DNA of 64,000 bases from Streptomyces aquilus (GTDB taxonomy: Bacteria; Actinomycetota; Actinomycetes; Streptomycetales; Streptomycetaceae). Shown here piece after piece: positions 1,678 to 19,706 of this stretch. The stretch is from positions 2,728,001-2,792,000 of the forward strand of contig NZ_CP034463.1 in the NCBI RefSeq assembly GCF_003955715.1, written 5' to 3'. The notes under the pieces were generated by a model. That model was not told where the DNA came from, searched no databases, and was given only the letters and a program-made list of their open reading frames with translations. A program made the position numbers and the translations under genes. Position 1 is the first letter of the stretch. The number at the start of each line of letters is the position of its first letter.

Positions 1678-2937
1678 ATGACACCCCGGCCAACCCGTCC
1701 CCACCGCCTCCTCCACGACCCCAACGCCCGCCTCTACCTCACCGCGGTCGTCGTCTCCGGCTTCGGCACCTCCGCGCTGTGGCTGGCCTCCGGCGTCTGG
1801 GTCAAAGACCTCACCGGCTCGAACGGCCTCGCCGCCCTGTGCATGCTCGCGATGTGGGCCCCCACCCTGGCCGGCCCCGCCCTCGGCACACTCGCCGACC
1901 GCACCCGCCGCAAACCGCTCCTCGTCGGAGCGAACCTGCTCCTGGCCACCCTCCTGCTCACCCTCACCACCGTGGACGCCTCCGGCGACCTGTGGCTCCT
2001 GTTCACGGTGCTCTTCGTGTACGGCGCGACCGGCGTCGTCCACGACGCCGCCGAGTCCGCCCTGGTCGCCTCAGCCGTGGACCACACCCTCCTCGGCGAC
2101 TTCAACGGCCTGCGCATGTCGGCGACGGAGGGCATGAAACTCCTCGCCCCCCTGGCGGGGGCGGGCCTCTACGCGGCGTACGGCGGACCCGCCGTCGCCC
2201 TCCTCGACGCCGTCACGTTCCTGGCCGCGGCCGCCCTGTACGCCCGCCTTCGCGTCCACGAACCCGGCCCCGAATCCCACCGCGCCCCCAACCCCAAACC
2301 CCCCACCCCCACCTGGCGCACACAGACCGCCGAGGGCGCCCGCCACCTGTGGCGGCACCCCCGACTCCGCCCCCTCGTCCTGGCCGGCGGCACCACCATG
2401 CTCTTCGCCGGCCTCAACGGCGCGATGATCTACGCCGTCGTCGACAGCCTCGGTCACTCCCCCGCGTACACCGGTGTCCTGTACGCCGTCCAGGGCGCCG
2501 GTTCCATAACGGTCGGCCTGCTCTCCGGCCCCGCGCTGCGGCACCTCGGCGAGCGCCGCTTCGCGGCGTACGGCATCGCCCTGACGGCCGTCGCGGCGGG
2601 CCTGCGCGCGATACCGGCCGACTGGCTGGCGCTGGTGTGCAGCGCGGCGAGCGGCCTGGGCCTGCCGTGCGTGCTGATCACCGTGCTCACGGCCGTACAG
2701 CGGGAGACCCCGGACGCGCTGCTCGGCCGTGCCGTCGCCACGGCCAACACCTTGGTGTTCGCACCGAACGTCCTCGGGCTGGCCGCGGGCGCGGCACTGG
2801 TCGAACTGGTCGGCCTGCGCCCCCTGTTGCCGATCCTGGGCGCGGTGTGGCTGGCGACCGCCGTGCCGCTGCTTCACAGCCCGGCGAGCGCCGACCCAAC
2901 CGCTTCCAGGTCCGCGTCCGACGCCAATCCGGCGTGA
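1678..2937 (+). CDS. MFS transporter, probable exporter
   Basis: 419 residues from ATG 1678. About twelve hydrophobic segments alternate with short basic loops. The loop LADRTRRKPLLV after TM2 is the MFS motif A equivalent (GxLaDrxGrkxxl). The Ala/Leu-rich helices and lack of a periplasmic domain fit the macrolide-efflux/EntS-like MFS branch. The last 64 bases overlap the convergent gene ending at 2874. The substrate is unknown. Confidence 0.9.
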   Translation: MTPRPTRPHRLLHDPNARLYLTAVVVSGFGTSALWLASGVWVKDLTGSNGLAALCMLAMWAPTLAGPALGTLADRTRRKPLLVGANLLLATLLLTLTTVDASGDLWLLFTVLFVYGATGVVHDAAESALVASAVDHTLLGDFNGLRMSATEGMKLLAPLAGAGLYAAYGGPAVALLDAVTFLAAAALYARLRVHEPGPESHRAPNPKPPTPTWRTQTAEGARHLWRHPRLRPLVLAGGTTMLFAGLNGAMIYAVVDSLGHSPAYTGVLYAVQGAGSITVGLLSGPALRHLGERRFAAYGIALTAVAAGLRAIPADWLALVCSAASGLGLPCVLITVLTAVQRETPDALLGRAVATANTLVFAPNVLGLAAGAALVELVGLRPLLPILGAVWLATAVPLLHSPASADPTASRSASDANPA

Positions 2938-4034
2938 TACAGCCGCAGTTCCGTCGCCCCGAGCGCACGCGCGCGTGCCGCGTCCGAGGCGAGGGTGCCG
3001 GGGCTGCCGCCCATGCCGGAGACGACGGTGAAGTTGGCGGCGATGACCGACCCGCCGGACACCTCGGCAAACGGGGCCAGCAGGCCCGGCCCGCCCGCGC
3101 AGGGCACGACCACCCCGTCCGCGACGGACAGGATGTGCGCCGGGTCCACGCCGGCGTTGGCGCCCACGTGGTACGAGACCGGGTCGGCGTGCAGCAGAAT
3201 CCGGAAGCCCGCGGGGGCGGCATCGCGCACCGCCGTCACCGCCGCCTCCTGGAGCGTGCGGGCGGTGTCGTCGCGCCACGCGCGCGTGGCGGCCGCGATC
3301 GAAGCGCCCAGGAGCTTCTCGACTCCGGCCCAGCCCCCGTCGGAGGGCGCCCCGCGCCACACCGGCTCCAGGGCGGCGCGGACGCCGGCCGCCAGTTCGC
3401 CGGCGTCGACGCCCCGGGCGCCGTAGCCCTCCCGGCAGGCGGGGCAGAAGCAGAGCGCCATCAGGTACAGGCCCGCGTCGCCGAGGCCGACGCCGCCGGT
3501 CTTGTCGTGGGCGTGCAGATGCTGGAGGCCGTACCAGCCGAGGGACTCCAGCTCGGTGCCGTGGGCGCCCGGCCGTACCGCCGCCTCGGCGGCCAGGTCG
3601 ACGAGGTACGCGCGCGTGGCGGGCTGGGCGATGCACGGGGCCCAGGGGTAGCGGTCGCCGTAGGCGTTGACGACGGAGGTGTCCGGATGCTCGGCGCCCA
3701 GCCGGGAGTTGTGCGCGAGGACCACCCAGGTGTGCACCTCCAGGCCGGCGTCGGTGAGCGCCGCGGCCGCCTCGCCGAACGCGTCGCCGGGCGCCCAGTC
3801 GCCGGCCGGGTAGGGCCGCAACTCCCGTCCCTGCCAACGGTCGTCGGTGGGGTAGAGCACGGCCGCGTGCTCGGCGGTGACGATGCGATGGCGCGGGTGG
3901 CGGGGGGTCAGCGCGCGCGTGGAGTGGTAGGCGGAGGCGAGCGTCACCTGCTGGACTCCGGTGGCCGCGATGGTCGCGGCGGCCCGGGGGTCTCCGTTGA
4001 CGTCCCAGGGGTAGACGAATGCCGACGCCTTCAC
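2874..4034 (-). CDS. Conserved protein of unknown function coupled to kdgD (possible TIM-barrel hydrolase)
   Basis: 386 residues. Its GTG start overlaps the kdgD stop (GTGA at 4031-4034), so translation is probably coupled. There is no signal peptide or membrane span. Alternating hydrophobic strands and Gly/Ala helices suggest a TIM barrel. A CFCPACREGYG motif near residue 197 resembles the CxCPxC motif seen in some uncharacterised glycoside-hydrolase-like barrels. Coupling to a sugar-acid dehydratase implies a role in uronate or aldarate use, perhaps releasing the substrate. The function is inferred from context only. Confidence 0.8.
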   Translation of the reverse strand: MKASAFVYPWDVNGDPRAAATIAATGVQQVTLASAYHSTRALTPRHPRHRIVTAEHAAVLYPTDDRWQGRELRPYPAGDWAPGDAFGEAAAALTDAGLEVHTWVVLAHNSRLGAEHPDTSVVNAYGDRYPWAPCIAQPATRAYLVDLAAEAAVRPGAHGTELESLGWYGLQHLHAHDKTGGVGLGDAGLYLMALCFCPACREGYGARGVDAGELAAGVRAALEPVWRGAPSDGGWAGVEKLLGASIAAATRAWRDDTARTLQEAAVTAVRDAAPAGFRILLHADPVSYHVGANAGVDPAHILSVADGVVVPCAGGPGLLAPFAEVSGGSVIAANFTVVSGMGGSPGTLASDAARARALGATELRLYHAGLASDADLEAVGSALAGL

Positions 4035-16232: not shown

Positions 16233-17813
16233 TCAGGCCGCCCACGGCCAGTCGGCGTCGCGGGCGCTCTCCAGCAGCGGCACCATCCGGAACGCCGCGT
16301 CCGACAGGCCCCCGAAGGTGTGCCGGTTCGCCGTGCCCGACGGGCCGTGGCCCGCCCGGTAGCCGGCCAGGTTCCAGGTGTAGACCGGCACGTCGGCGGG
16401 GACCTGCTCGGTCGGGTCGCCGTAGTGGCTGTACGCGTACTGCTCGTCGGTGACGATCAGCACCCGGTCGTGCCTGCGGTAGTGCCGGCGCACCGCGCCC
16501 GTGGTGTCGGTGCCGCCCAGGTTGCCGAAGCGCTCCAGGATCTTGAGCACCGACTCGCCCTTGCGGAACCGCACCTCGGCGCTGGTGGTGCCGAACTGCA
16601 CCAGGTCCGCCCGCTCCGCGCGCAGCGCGAGCGCCGTGCCGAAGATCGCCGCCGCGTCCGCCCGGTTGAGCTGCGAGCGGTCGGACAGCCGGCCCCACAT
16701 CGAGCCCGAGCGGTCGACGAGGACGAGCGTCCGGCCGGGCAGCGCGGGCACGTTGGCCAGCGAGTGGCCGAGCGCCTGCTCCAGCGGGTACGCCCAGCGC
16801 AGCGACGGCGCGTGCTGGTACGCGGCGAGGTACCGGAAGGGGAACTGCCGCGACCGCGCGACCTCCGCCGGGTCACTGATCCGGGCCGCGACCTGGGCCG
16901 CGACCTCGTCGGAGACCCCGGCCTGGTCGAAGTTGCGGAGATTCCGCACGAGCGCCATCGCGCCCATGGACGGAATGACCGCCTCCCAGGCCGCCTTGTC
17001 CATCGGCCCCTGCAACCACCCGGCCAGCGCCTCCCAGGTCATCCCGGCCGCGGCGAGCCGCTCGGCGCCGCCCGCGGACGTGACGACCGCGCGCCGCTCC
17101 GCGACCGGCAGCGCCATCAGCTCACGGTGGGCGACCAGCGTCCGGTTCGACGCGGGCGGCACGGCCGTGTCCGGGTTGTGCCGGCGGTCGAGGGCGTACC
17201 GGAACAGCTCGCCCTGCCACGGCTTGTCCGGGTCGGGCACCGCGTGCACCAGGTTGAGGATGTCGCCGAAGCGGTAGCCCTTGGCCGCGGTGTCGTACTT
17301 CAGCAGCGACTTTCCGCTGTAGAGACGTCGTACGGCGTCGGCGACGCCGCGCTTGACGGGCTTGGGCACATTGCGGCCGTAGGTCGCCGTCCAGTATGCG
17401 AGCAGCTCGCCGGGCTCGTCCGGACGCCGGAGCACGGAGTCGACGACCTGCCGGTTGGAGGGGCCGCCGGTGGCGCCCGCGTCGAGGCGCGCCTTCACGT
17501 ACTCGGCGGCGCCGACGACGGAGGCGGTACGGAGGTTGCCCTCGCCGCGCAGCCAGCCGAGCAGGCCTGCGGTCCACTCCGGGTCGGTGACGGCGAGCTC
17601 CCGCACGAGCGTCGCGAAGCGGTCGTCGCGGTCGGCGCCGGTCTCGTAGAAGGTCTGCTGGGAGACGAAGTTGGCGACGGCGAGCAGAAAGAGCTCGGAG
17701 CGCGCGTCCCGCTCACGGCCTCGGCCGCCCTGGAAGGTGCGCAGCACGCGGCCCGTGGAGGTGACGCGCGAAGTGGGCTGCGCCCGTGCTGTCTTCCTGT
17801 TGAATCGCGACAT
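16233..17813 (-). CDS. rsr: Ro60/Rsr-type TROVE-domain RNA-binding protein
   Basis: 526 residues from ATG 17813, with GGGGGA upstream. The N-terminal two thirds is a HEAT-repeat-like TROVE ring that in Ro60 binds misfolded RNA ends and Y RNA. The C-terminal third is a von Willebrand A domain with the MIDAS motif DRSGSM (367-372). Bacterial Rsr works with Y RNAs and 3' exonucleases such as PNPase in RNA maturation and decay (established). The length matches the family. Two Y-RNA-like genes lie directly upstream on the same strand, which strongly supports the function. The symbol is by analogy to Deinococcus rsr. Confidence 0.95.
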   Translation of the reverse strand: MSRFNRKTARAQPTSRVTSTGRVLRTFQGGRGRERDARSELFLLAVANFVSQQTFYETGADRDDRFATLVRELAVTDPEWTAGLLGWLRGEGNLRTASVVGAAEYVKARLDAGATGGPSNRQVVDSVLRRPDEPGELLAYWTATYGRNVPKPVKRGVADAVRRLYSGKSLLKYDTAAKGYRFGDILNLVHAVPDPDKPWQGELFRYALDRRHNPDTAVPPASNRTLVAHRELMALPVAERRAVVTSAGGAERLAAAGMTWEALAGWLQGPMDKAAWEAVIPSMGAMALVRNLRNFDQAGVSDEVAAQVAARISDPAEVARSRQFPFRYLAAYQHAPSLRWAYPLEQALGHSLANVPALPGRTLVLVDRSGSMWGRLSDRSQLNRADAAAIFGTALALRAERADLVQFGTTSAEVRFRKGESVLKILERFGNLGGTDTTGAVRRHYRRHDRVLIVTDEQYAYSHYGDPTEQVPADVPVYTWNLAGYRAGHGPSGTANRHTFGGLSDAAFRMVPLLESARDADWPWAA

Positions 17814-17847
17814 GCTGAATTCCCCCGAATTCACTGTGGGTTTCGGA

Positions 17848-18035
17848 GGGAGGCGCAGCAAAAGGAGGGTGCCCGAGTTCGAAGTCGGCTGCGGAAAAGA
17901 CTGGCGCGTCTGCCGTTCCGCCACATCGACCCTGAGTCGATGACGGGATTCGAACCCGCACGAGGGTTTACCCCCACCAGTTCCGGAAGTATCCGCTGCC
18001 TGCGCACCGGGCACCCACCTTGAGCTGCGCCTCCC
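17848..18035 (-). ncRNA. Y-RNA-like RNA B with class-II (tRNA-Leu-like) permuted tRNA module
   Basis: The ends (18035-18024 and 17859-17848) form a perfect 12-bp stem, followed by an almost perfect second stem. A Ro-type motif pair lies at 18008-17996 (GGTGCGCAGGCAG) and 17880-17868 (GAACTCGGGCACC). Inside is a complete tRNA body in permuted order: anticodon-stem ACTGG, long variable arm GGGGGTAAACCCTC, T-arm (17959-17943, TTCGAAT loop), closed acceptor hairpin CATCGAC-TCAGG-GTCGATG (17942-17924), D-arm GCG..CGC, anticodon-stem CCAGT. The anticodon loop is replaced by the Y stem. This is the layout expected of bacterial YrlA RNAs. Confidence 0.88.
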
Positions 18036-18066
18036 CGAGTTCAAAAAGTTCGCACCGGGAGGTGCA
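18026..18066 (-). ncRNA. Minimal Ro-motif hairpin between the two Y-like RNAs
   Basis: CCTCCC near the 5' side pairs with GGGAGG, enclosing GGTGCGAA (18056-18049), a T5 stretch and GAACTCGGG (18042-18034). These are the same two motifs that flank the tRNA-like modules of RNAs A and B, but with no module. Its 3' arm is also the 5' arm of RNA B, so the two folds exclude each other. It could be a degenerate Y RNA, a processing signal or a switch. Confidence 0.5.
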
Positions 18067-18078
18067 TGAAATTGTGGT

Positions 18079-18216
18079 GTCCAGAGTTCAGGTCGGCGGA
18101 ACCGACATTAGGTGCTCTAACCCCTGAGCTACACCGGCGCGTTGTACCGGTGGCGGGACTCGAACCCGCGGCCGCCCCATTATGAGTGGAAGTAGGTCCT
18201 GCCTTCGCACCTGGAC
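18079..18216 (-). ncRNA. Y-RNA-like RNA A with class-I permuted tRNA module
   Basis: Terminal stem GTCCAG (18216-18211) with CTGGAC (18084-18079). The Ro-type motifs are GGTGCGAAGGCAG (18211-18199) and GAACTCTGGACACC (18089-18076). The tRNA-like module is permuted: T-arm GCGGG-TTCGAGT-CCCGC (18169-18153), acceptor hairpin CACCGGT-ACAACGC-GCCGGTG (18152-18132), then T8-A9 and a canonical D-arm GCTC-AGGGGTTA-GAGC (18129-18114). It has no anticodon loop and no CCA end. A hairpin TCGG-TTCCG-CCGA follows. The 5' end lies 7-8 bases after a TAGAGT -10 box. Confidence 0.88.
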
Positions 18217-18223
18217 GTTCTTC

Positions 18224-18229
18224 ACTCTA
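18224..18229 (-). promoter_or_regulatory. -10 box of the Y-like RNA / Ro60 transcription unit
   Basis: TAGAGT on the minus strand, ending 7-8 bases before the 5' stem of RNA A. The -35 is weak. No second promoter was seen before RNA B or the Ro60 gene, so one transcript may contain all three. Confidence 0.55.
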
Positions 18230-18263
18230 GGAGGCGTGCCGCGGGCGAGCGACTCAATTAATG

Positions 18264-19706
18264 TCAGCCGCGCTTCTGGCGCTTCCAGGGGCCGGTGATG
18301 GCGAGCATGATGCCCGGCGTCTGGATGTTGGCGAAGAGGGTCCGGCCGTCGCAGGAGAAGGTGACGCCGGTGAACTCGCTGTACTCGGGCTCCTCTTCGG
18401 TGCCGATGTTGAGTTCGTTGCGGGCGATCGGGTACGTCTTGCCGCTGTCCGTGGCGCCGAAGAGGTGCTGGACGCCCTCGCCGTCCTCGGCGATGACGAG
18501 GCCGCCGTACGGGGAGACGGTGATGTTGTCGGGGCCGTCGAAGGCGCCGTCGACGGAGGGGTCGGGGTTGACGCCGAGGAGCACCTTCAGGGTGAGGGTG
18601 CGGCGCTTGGGGTCGTAGAACCAGACCTGGCCGTCGTGCTGGACGGGGCTCTCCGTGCGGGCGTAGGAGGAGACGATGTAGGCGCCGCCGTCACCCCACC
18701 ACATGCCCTCCAGCTTGCGGGCGCGGGTGACCTGTCCGTCGGAGAACTGCTTGCGGACGGCGACGGTCTTGGCGTCGCGGTCGGGGACGTCCACCCAGTC
18801 GACGCCGTAGACGGTGCCGATCTTGGTGGCGCGGGAGAGGTCGTCGACGAACTGGCCGCCGGAGTCGAAGCACTTGAAGGCCTGGAGGGCGCCGGCGTCG
18901 TCGGCGAGGGTGCGCAGCTTGCCGCGGCCGTGCTCGAAGCCCTGGGGCGGGGTCCAGCGGAAGAGCAGGCCGTTGGGGCCGGCGGCGTCCTCGGTGAGGT
19001 AGGCGTGGCCGCGCCTGGGGTCGATGACGACGGCCTCGTGGGCGTAACGGCCGAAGAACTTCAGGGGCTTGGGGGCGCGGTTGGCGCGGTGGTCGATCGG
19101 GTCGACCTCGAAGACGTAGCCGTGGTCCTTGGTCATGCCGTTGGTGCCGGCCTTGTCCTCGGTCTCCTCGCAGGTGAGCCAGGTGTCCCAAGGGGTGCGG
19201 CCGCCCGCGCAGTTGGTGGAGGTGCCGGCGATGCCGACCCACTCGGCGACGTGCCCGCCGGGGCGGACCTCGACGACCGTGCAGCCGCCGGACGCGGCGG
19301 GGTCGTAGACCAGGCCCTCGGTGAGCGGCACGGGGTACTTCCAGTTGGCGCGCGGGCCCTTCAGCTCGTGGTTGTTGACGAGCAGGGTGGTGCCGCGGGG
19401 GCCGTCGAAGGTGGCCGTGCCGTCGTGGTTGGACGGGGTGATCTCGCCCGACTCCAGCTTGGTCTTGCCGCTGTAGGTGATGACGCGGTACTTGAACCCG
19501 GCGGGCAGCGCGAGGATGCCGTCGGGGTCGGGGATCAGGGGCCCGTAGCCGACTCCGCCGCGAGCGTCCGCCCCGCTCTCGGCGTCGATGTCGGTGGACG
19601 CGAGGGCTTGCGGCGCGGTGGCGAGGGCGCCGACGCTGCCGGCCAGCGCGACACCGGCACCGGTGATCGCGGAGTTTCTGGCGAAGTCCCTGCGGGTGAG
19701 CGACAT
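18264..19706 (-). CDS. PhoX/DUF839-family secreted phosphatase
   Basis: 480 residues from ATG 19706 with AGGAG upstream. The Tat signal peptide has SLTRRDFARN and a hydrophobic core ending near ALAS, so the protein is exported folded with its cofactor. The beta-propeller DUF839 domain shows NNHE, CEETEDKAG, GRYAHEAVVIDP and EDAAGPNG, the region where PhoX enzymes bind Ca2+ and Fe3+. It probably releases phosphate from organic esters outside the cell. A PHO box 71 bases upstream indicates PhoP control. Confidence 0.9.
   Translation of the reverse strand: MSLTRRDFARNSAITGAGVALAGSVGALATAPQALASTDIDAESGADARGGVGYGPLIPDPDGILALPAGFKYRVITYSGKTKLESGEITPSNHDGTATFDGPRGTTLLVNNHELKGPRANWKYPVPLTEGLVYDPAASGGCTVVEVRPGGHVAEWVGIAGTSTNCAGGRTPWDTWLTCEETEDKAGTNGMTKDHGYVFEVDPIDHRANRAPKPLKFFGRYAHEAVVIDPRRGHAYLTEDAAGPNGLLFRWTPPQGFEHGRGKLRTLADDAGALQAFKCFDSGGQFVDDLSRATKIGTVYGVDWVDVPDRDAKTVAVRKQFSDGQVTRARKLEGMWWGDGGAYIVSSYARTESPVQHDGQVWFYDPKRRTLTLKVLLGVNPDPSVDGAFDGPDNITVSPYGGLVIAEDGEGVQHLFGATDSGKTYPIARNELNIGTEEEPEYSEFTGVTFSCDGRTLFANIQTPGIMLAITGPWKRQKRG

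Follow-up and report, generated by a model that had tools for sequence, protein, structure and literature searches.

Candidate Y RNAs with class-I and class-II permuted tRNA-like heads on a common scaffold upstream of ro60 in Streptomyces

Which RNAs are encoded on the minus strand of Streptomyces aquilus in the interval that separates a PhoX-type gene (18264-19706) from a TROVE gene, and what would a Ro60 protein do with them? A survey by Chen 2014 reportedly found Y RNAs close to Ro60 in more than 250 bacteria and phages, each species having one tRNA-like RNA or more. In the consulted parts of the literature, bacterial Y RNAs are described as having tRNA-like domains, Rsr binding, DusA/TruB modification and PNPase tethering (PMC8394870, PMC4726728, PMC7790460, PMC8058203), and the structure of Salmonella YrlA (6CU1) as a circular permutation (the consulted part of PMC11472068). 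The stretch analysed here (the window, 64,000 nucleotides) lies in a genome that is a single contig of 10.39 Mb, and all coordinates refer to the window unless the genome is named. Between the two genes we found three units, A, M and B, with a common lower scaffold, which judged by sequence are probably an array of three Y RNAs read toward ro60:

18079-18216, minus strand: RNA A, Y RNA with a class-I circularly permuted tRNA body (from sequence; Rfam YrlA 35.0 bits, below the cut-off; own-model match at genome 2746079-2746216, model R1, 45.2 bits, E 1.5e-6)
18030-18062, minus strand: RNA M, minimal Y-type hairpin that lacks a tRNA body (from a pattern)
17867-18016, minus strand: RNA B, Y RNA with a class-II, tRNA-Leu(GAG)-like permuted body (from covariation in 37 relatives and comparison with the genome's own tRNAs; own-model match at genome 2745867-2746016, R1, 175.1 bits)
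16233-17813, minus strand: ro60, a TROVE-VWA gene of 526 aa (Pfam TROVE, E 1.8e-13)

The ro60 product also matches the PDB TROVE chains 9kop and 9l5y (E about 1e-26). RNA B runs in the same direction as ro60 and lies 53 nt from its start codon, as near to a Ro60/TROVE gene as is expected of a YrlA-type RNA. In the bodies of both A and B a variable region and a T arm come first, then an acceptor stem capped with a short loop and lastly the D arm; as predicted, this is the architecture of a tRNA that has been opened within its anticodon loop and whose acceptor end is sealed. The parts are as follows:

18153-18169, minus strand: T arm of RNA A (from sequence)
18132-18152, minus strand: closed acceptor hairpin of RNA A, 7 bp (from sequence)
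18114-18129, minus strand: D arm of RNA A (from sequence)
18009-18016 with 17867-17874, minus strand: terminal stem of RNA B, 8 bp (from sequence)
17977-17981, minus strand: anticodon stem of RNA B, 39-43 side, with its partner at 17900-17904 (ACTGG/CCAGT, 5 bp; two-sided changes in 5/5 pairs)
17960-17976, minus strand: variable arm of RNA B, 17 nt, a GGGGG/CCCTC hairpin (two-sided changes in 5/5 pairs; parsed per sequence)
17943-17959, minus strand: T arm of RNA B (from sequence)
17924-17942, minus strand: closed acceptor hairpin of RNA B, 7 bp, loop TCAGG, no CCA end (covariation, helix 6)
17906-17921, minus strand: D arm of RNA B (GCGGAACGGCAGACGC), tRNA-Leu type (41 of 42 class-II B bodies are closest to a Leu D arm)
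17900-17904, minus strand: anticodon stem of RNA B, 27-31 side (covariation, helix 3)

The acceptor loop has 7 nt in A and 5 nt in B and CCA is absent from both, while the anticodon stem of A, assessed by eye, is weak (about 3 bp). The Y scaffold that carries the bodies is made of a terminal stem, an internal motif of the type GGUGCG-N-AGG / ACUUNGAUCUC, a GGC/GCC stem, a one-base mismatch and a UACUUC box. RNA M of the window retains only the outer part of this scaffold and is a shortened form of a body-less Y RNA of ~75 nt; at the M position of the 102 Ro60 loci described below, a pattern search gave the full version in 88, the mini form in 11 and none in 3. The permuted tRNA-like domain with D, T and acceptor arms is present in A and B and absent from the body-less M. 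The UACUUC-type box follows the Ro60-type motif at 17986-17991 in B and 18189-18194 in A (both on the minus strand), and by eye it is also seen in solo copies. An [AC]CUUC box stands 3′ of the motif in all units examined (68 of A, 83 of full M, 94 of B). The vertebrate-type Ro60 site is described in the consulted part of PMC4726728 as a 7-bp helix with a bulged C and a 3-nt bulge opposite; on comparison, our conserved internal motif is at the right place and the exact bulges are unmatched.

It may be noted that the first-pass annotation of this DNA had described two permuted-tRNA units on the minus strand next to a Ro60 gene, with paired terminal stems and a common motif pair. We recovered the coordinates and the arms, the TROVE match identifies the neighbour, and the scaffold is shared by A and B. 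The class-I body that we parsed in A agrees with its description as a class-I mimic. The inventory of two RNAs was right for A and B, and incomplete, as RNA M and a solo tRNA-Glu-like copy elsewhere in the genome had been missed.

That tRNA finders would miss such units, as had been predicted, was borne out, with ARAGORN giving zero tRNAs over the whole window. Rfam at gathering cut-offs likewise gave zero matches over the window. When the Rfam YrlA model (RF02553) was used at lower thresholds, a check that had been proposed beforehand, RNA A scored 35.0 bits against a gathering cut-off of 69 bits and RNA B was unmatched at E 10, so that the check detects one of the two units and that below the cut-off. 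Weak matches to miRNA, tRNA and other Rfam families beside YrlA in the same scan were taken as chance. Among 15 loci searched at E 0.1, RF02553 matched the class-I B units in 8/8 cases and the class-II B units in 0/7, and every match in these loci was below the gathering score (best unit 48.8 bits). Since the class-I B units of 8 other loci align to RF02553 end to end (1-114 of 114), the sub-gathering scores point to a limit of the Rfam model more than of the anatomy. Minimum-free-energy folding of the single window sequences was ordinary (z of -0.07 for A, -1.18 for B and -0.15 for M, where the B stretch that was folded lacks the first 5 nt of RNA B), and the fold of lowest energy for this B stretch differs from the cloverleaf. 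At another locus (L014) the full M folds better than its shuffles (z -2.97) and the class-I B somewhat better (z -1.69).

To which tRNAs the heads are similar was assessed against 71 ARAGORN tRNAs (70 distinct) taken from 72 of the 74 tRNA places of the genome. When the parts of B are put back in tRNA order, its best matches are the two tRNA-Leu(GAG) genes (68.5 and 67.0), followed by tRNA-His (54.0), as its earlier description as a class-II Leu mimic would have it, with a modest overall identity to tRNA-Leu(GAG) of 52 of 78 aligned positions. The D arm alone gives a clearer picture, in which Leu-GAG scores 18.0 of 20, Leu-CAG 15.5 and the next 10. A Leu D arm is also the best match for 41/42 parsed class-II B bodies, and the single exception, L094 (best match Ser, at no more than 4.5), was parsed wrongly at a repeat. 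In the B unit of L025 and L094 the acceptor region is enlarged by a short tandem repeat (TGTCAGAATTC-like) ahead of the Leu-type D arm. The B of the window has the features of a class-II mimic, namely a long paired variable arm, a Leu-type D arm and A15-U48. The variable region of class-II B spans 6 to 19 nt (at least 11 nt in 29/37 and 6 nt in 8/37), and as these 8 of 37 have a Leu-type D arm and yet a 6-nt variable region, 'class II' is not a uniform label. The A heads are Arg/Val/Ile-like (Arg-CCT is best for 53 of 68) and the class-I B heads have Trp-CCA as best match in 28 of 56 cases; both are near to several isotypes and are therefore generic.

The solo Y RNA of the same genome (C1:9547265-9547400) has a tRNA-Glu-type D arm, with a score of 16.0 against 10.0 for the next. 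This copy (about 1501-1640 in L170) is far from Ro60 and by eye is followed by a GC-rich terminator-like hairpin and a T run. Weakly Ser-like class-II heads with a TGGCCGAG D arm, identified mostly by eye, occur in L281, L282, L285, L286, L426, L427, L429, L430 and L431. These RNAs stand away from any Ro60 match found, and several of the loci have a common downstream sequence of the TGTCAGTGG type.

The positions that form the tRNA elbow are nearly invariant. Over the 164 parsed bodies (A, class-I B and class-II B), U8 is present in 163, A14 in 164 and the D-loop GG in 164, and the 15-48 pair is G-C in 73, A-U in 90 and A-C in 1, all counts being inflated by common ancestry. In class-I B only, this pair is A-U in 49, G-C in 5 and A-C in 1; in class-II B it is A15-U48 in 41/41. 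The Streptomyces body parser relied on the T loop, the T stem and the acceptor hairpin and not on these tertiary positions. The D-arm and tertiary counts cover parser-found bodies (without L023 and L080, and for the tertiary positions also without L083 and L094). Other genera are less constant, with U8 in 28/34 and A14 in 24/34 parsed bodies, some of which are chance hairpins.

We then compared 102 distinct Ro60 loci, which are the best Ro60 matches and so are biased to close relatives (110 loci, minus L043 where the gene start is absent, minus 7 duplicates). In 57 of them RNA B is class I and in 43 class II, and the remaining 2 have lost it, with the label given by eye in L023, L025, L039, L052, L061, L077, L080, L083, L086 and L094; RNA A is present in 68/101 loci. 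The tandem of two classes that the first-pass annotation had remarked upon thus holds for the window and is not a fixed arrangement. On a quick maximum-likelihood ro60 tree of the 102 loci (one tree), 18 class changes are needed. Also, in 10 of 34 pairs with ro60 genes of equal length and >94% identity the class differs. In one such relative (L032) ro60 is 96.7% identical to that of the window, yet A is absent, M is full and B is class-I. The first 31 nt of B are 93% identical between the classes (94% and 97% within), and the last 22 nt, the 3′ Y arm, are 69% identical between and 79% and 78% within. Among the near pairs listed, class I is accompanied by loss of A, and the swaps may therefore be exchanges of the whole array and not of the head. 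The case of L033, which has A and mini-M as in the window and a class-I B, indicates that the head can change alone. That the types are repeatedly swapped suggests a tRNA-like head which serves as a handle or decoy and can be exchanged.

To rationalize these features, we consider it probable that A, M and B make up an array of Y RNAs held by Ro60, in which the permuted and sealed tRNA heads of A and B dock a tRNA-binding partner via the elbow. We infer that the units are transcribed, probably from a conserved promoter-like site, and that the common Y stem scaffold would be the Ro60-binding handle, with the stem held on the outer surface of Ro60. As the acceptor end is sealed by a hairpin, the L-shaped head should escape aminoacylation, and by its elbow it would dock a partner that is most likely PNPase, as in the RYPER complex of Deinococcus. 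The heads alternate between class I and class II with U8, A14, GG and 15-48 retained, so the partner probably reads the elbow and not the isoacceptor identity. A different function, which we regard as rather unlikely, would be that of a decoy array whose different tRNA identities titrate tRNA-cutting or tRNA-modifying toxins, with the turnover of heads reflecting a conflict with changing enzymes. Several identities do coexist (Arg/Val/Ile-like in A, Leu-like in B, Glu-like in the solo copy), the turnover is fast as counted above, similar RNAs occur on viral contigs, and competitive inhibition of an anticodon nuclease has been proposed for Salmonella YrlA in the consulted part of PMC7790460. 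But opening of the anticodon loop leaves anticodon nucleases without a site, the same part of that report gives YrlA fragments as undetected (PMC7790460), and the class-I heads, which are about equally near to several isotypes, argue against a precise mimicry of identity.

The docking model would have the RNAs go together with Ro60, and this linkage is observed. At E 1 our class-II model (R1) finds B (175.1 bits), the solo copy (63.6) and A (45.2) in the own genome. Among 121 evenly drawn Streptomyces genomes R1 has matches in 66, and all of these are among the 68 genomes with a Ro60 match better than E 1e-100. The Y RNA model thus matches in 66/68 genomes with strong Ro60 against 0/53 others (Fisher p 2e-32, with seven genomes of weak or partial Ro60 counted as without and the cut chosen after the list was seen). 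In 13 of the 121 genomes R1 reaches at least 125 bits, and the 12 of these 13 loci that were classified are all class II. R1 gave 23 further matches away from any Ro60 found, of which 20 were read (some in draft genomes); their heads are Glu-like in 10, generic class-I in 2, Gln/Glu-like in 1 and weakly Ser-like class-II in 4 (L281, L282, L285 and L286, two of them scored), and 3 are bodiless.

In other Actinomycetota genera, 17 of 26 Ro60 loci (L172-L197) have one or more permuted bodies by our strict parser, which gave zero upstream of the remaining 9. The heads there are Glu-like, Gln/Glu-like or have class-I D arms, with up to four bodies at one locus (L182). For 45 divergent Streptomyces Ro60 loci (L198-L210, L212-L243) the same parser gave bodies in 26 and none in 19. 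A Leu-type head is absent from all 71 of these loci. A pattern scan of the phylum (396 genomes) gave zero Leu-type heads outside Streptomyces: the strict class-II pattern had 15 matches, 2 of them permuted (G000 and G095, same genus), and the other 13 were set aside as tandem ordinary tRNA genes in appearance (by eye). Zero Leu-type heads were also found outside the genus at 125 bits or more in a sample of the order (245 genomes, most of the listed ones Streptomyces), where the 13 matches read had class-I-like or other D arms and none of the Leu type (by eye; one on the wrong strand). RNA B was unmatched in the phage and plasmid collections. When 345 genomes were searched for the TROVE family, a threshold of E 1e-20 proved too strict, as it misses the gene of the window itself. 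On these sequence searches the Leu-type head looks limited to one part of Streptomyces.

Upstream of the array and of ro60 we identified three further elements:

18224-18229, minus strand: -10-like TAGAGT, 7 nt short of the assumed RNA A start (loose pattern)
18256-18261, minus strand: TTAATT box, which starts 32 nt before the start of the -10-like box (conservation)
17817-17832, minus strand: GAATTC-GGGG-GAATTC palindrome that covers the presumed ribosome-binding site of ro60 (in 95/102 loci)

The -10-like box is seen in 93/101 loci (with a loose pattern and without a chance control) and the TTAATT-like box in 83/101; both are present in 80/101, at a spacing of 33 in 72 and 32 in 8. In 25 loci listed (L041 is cut by the contig end) the -10-like box precedes whichever unit comes first. 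The spacing of TTAATT is unlike that of a usual -35 box, which is perhaps a sign of another sigma factor or of an activator site. The palindrome is a possible translational control hairpin for ro60. A rival proposal is that the whole set are leader-RNA regulators of ro60 and not free RNAs. The units do lie upstream of ro60 in the same direction with only 53 nt from B to the start codon, no clear terminator is seen by eye ahead of ro60, and the palindrome over the presumed ribosome-binding site is conserved. We nevertheless judge this proposal improbable, given the copies away from any Ro60 found (C1:9547265-9547400 in the own genome and 20 in other genomes, some of them drafts) and the terminator-like hairpin seen by eye after the own solo copy.

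For class-II B the predicted structure was tested by covariation. From the 43 class-II loci 39 units were cut out (without L020, L056, L074 and L094), of which 38 are distinct, and on leaving out L069 the alignment (A1) has 37 distinct sequences. Standard pairs fill 98.6% of its 1421 cells and two-sided changes occur in 17/40 pairs (71 cells). In 0/500 shuffles was any of five measures reached, and the structure beats all six slides, with the slid versions pairing 38-49% of cells; it may be noted that kinship can beat shuffles without structure, and that a structure derived from one member beats slides. The end-to-end stem (helix 1) has 98.0% of cells paired and two-sided changes in 3/8 pairs, so that B also has the long stem of the family. 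All 5/5 anticodon-stem pairs and 5/5 variable-arm pairs show two-sided changes over the 37 relatives. The variable arm has 96.9% of cells paired despite replacement of its sequence, which is complete in some species, e.g. L071 and L097; this complete replacement is the part hardest to explain by kinship or by a slide artefact. The stems of B that the first-pass annotation had described are conserved and covary in relatives, and the lack of conservation that it had named as a refutation did not occur. In class-I B 99.4% of cells are paired, with two-sided changes in 7/23 pairs (29 cells) and 0/300 shuffles as high. A and M are too conserved in Streptomyces for most of their stems to be assessed in this way, with two-sided changes in 1/26 pairs for A and 2/15 for M.

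The covariation bears on the idea that class II is mere drift, i.e. that B is a class-I mimic with functionless divergence of the D arm and variable loop. The spread in length of the variable region (6 to 19 nt) would fit with it, but the pairing kept through sequence replacement largely refutes drift and the Leu D arm is best in 41/42 parsed bodies, and we consider it very unlikely. As to maturation of A and B into working tRNAs, permuted tRNA genes of red algae have the 3′ half first and then the 5′ half, and the order of parts here is the same, but the acceptor loops of 5 nt (TCAGG in B) and 7 nt (A) lack CCA, no recognisable anticodon loop is seen, two intact tRNA-Leu(GAG) genes are present in the genome and the Y scaffold is common with the body-less M, so this is hardly credible.

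The proposed Ro60-held array may now be set beside known systems. With YrlA (RF02553, 6CU1; consulted parts of PMC8394870 and PMC11472068) the window shares the location near ro60, the long stem of paired ends and the permuted T/acceptor/D body, and it differs by the Leu-type D arm, 5-bp anticodon stem and long variable arm of RNA B. As in the Ro60 / Y RNA / PNPase complex (RYPER) of Deinococcus radiodurans, a Ro60 orthologue stands beside a Y RNA and by analogy a tethering role would be expected; unlike there, the Streptomyces genome has several Y RNAs with different heads. In the rsr-yrlBA-rtcBA operon of Salmonella, too, Ro60 is accompanied by a tandem of Y RNAs, whereas Ro60 and three scanned neighbour proteins here include no RtcA, RtcB or RtcR, and B is class II.

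Similar RNAs were encountered in viruses. A scan for Leu-type permuted bodies gave at least 121 matches at at least 120 loci, at least 9 of them with a 6- or 7-bp acceptor hairpin; several of these 9 are tandem tRNAs by eye. Among the matches listed, L394 and L338 have a Leu-type body near a DUF7873 (PF25283) gene (in the L394 contig the gene is at 2521-3255 and the RNAs start from about 3300). In both, a second, class-I-like body lies downstream with weak YrlA matches (33.2 and 37.5 bits, cut-off 69). With a DUF7873 profile we found 93 relatives and used the best 80 of them (L435-L514, both discovery loci included). At least one strict permuted body is present in 58 of these best 80 loci against 0/80 reversed controls, with 72 bodies in all; an exact match to the Leu-type GGCGGAA is seen in 9 of them, and the start of 36 is class-I-like, T(A/G)GC(T/C)(C/T)A. 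Of the first plus-strand bodies, 55/57 lie within 500 nt after the DUF7873 gene. On deduplication of the best 80 of 93, 60 bodies remain at 48 loci, two or more of them in 12/48. The 15-48 pair is A-U or G-C in 58/60 (the parser demanded a purine at 15), and the flanks pair better with their own partner than when swapped (-28.4 vs -20.1 kcal/mol).

Like the window, these loci have a permuted tRNA body on paired flanks, in some with a Leu-type body followed by a class-I-like one. Unlike the window, the Ro60-type motif is found in only 1 of the best 80 and 36/60 acceptor loops open with NCCA. A TROVE match is absent from the two DUF7873 records tested and from a third viral record (L380) without a recognised DUF7873, each of which may be a fragment. 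The predicted model of DUF7873 (244 residues) is a mixed helix-strand fold with mean pLDDT 92.8 and pTM 0.69. Its profile search of the PDB gave two chains alone at E 0.65, searches of PHROGs (E 0.001), PADLOC and NCBIfam (E 0.01) gave zero matches, and DUF7873 is unnamed in the literature searched.

The mimicry of tRNA by bacterial Y RNAs (YrlA) and the presence of multiple Y RNAs are already known. The novelty would seem to lie in the class-II body, in the way it and class-I bodies replace each other within one Y scaffold, and in the use of several tRNA flavours; the literature searched, with incomplete coverage of primary papers, gave no mention of class-II heads or of head exchange. As a wider and tentative reading, for which we would claim less than even confidence, the heads may be exchangeable cassettes, with Leu-, Ser-, Glu-, Gln- and class-I-like heads in Actinomycetota placed on a common Ro60-binding stem as handles or decoys of fast turnover, and viruses doing likewise with the unrelated protein DUF7873 in a Ro60-independent RNP. 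If confirmed, the viral DUF7873 loci would be a second protein context for tRNA-mimic RNAs. With the Leu-type heads it is also seen that some members of the family escape the Rfam YrlA model. Since class-I and class-II heads have naturally replaced each other in one scaffold, with the tertiary-contact positions kept, head swaps can test what such a head binds and whether the mimicry is general or of a single tRNA.
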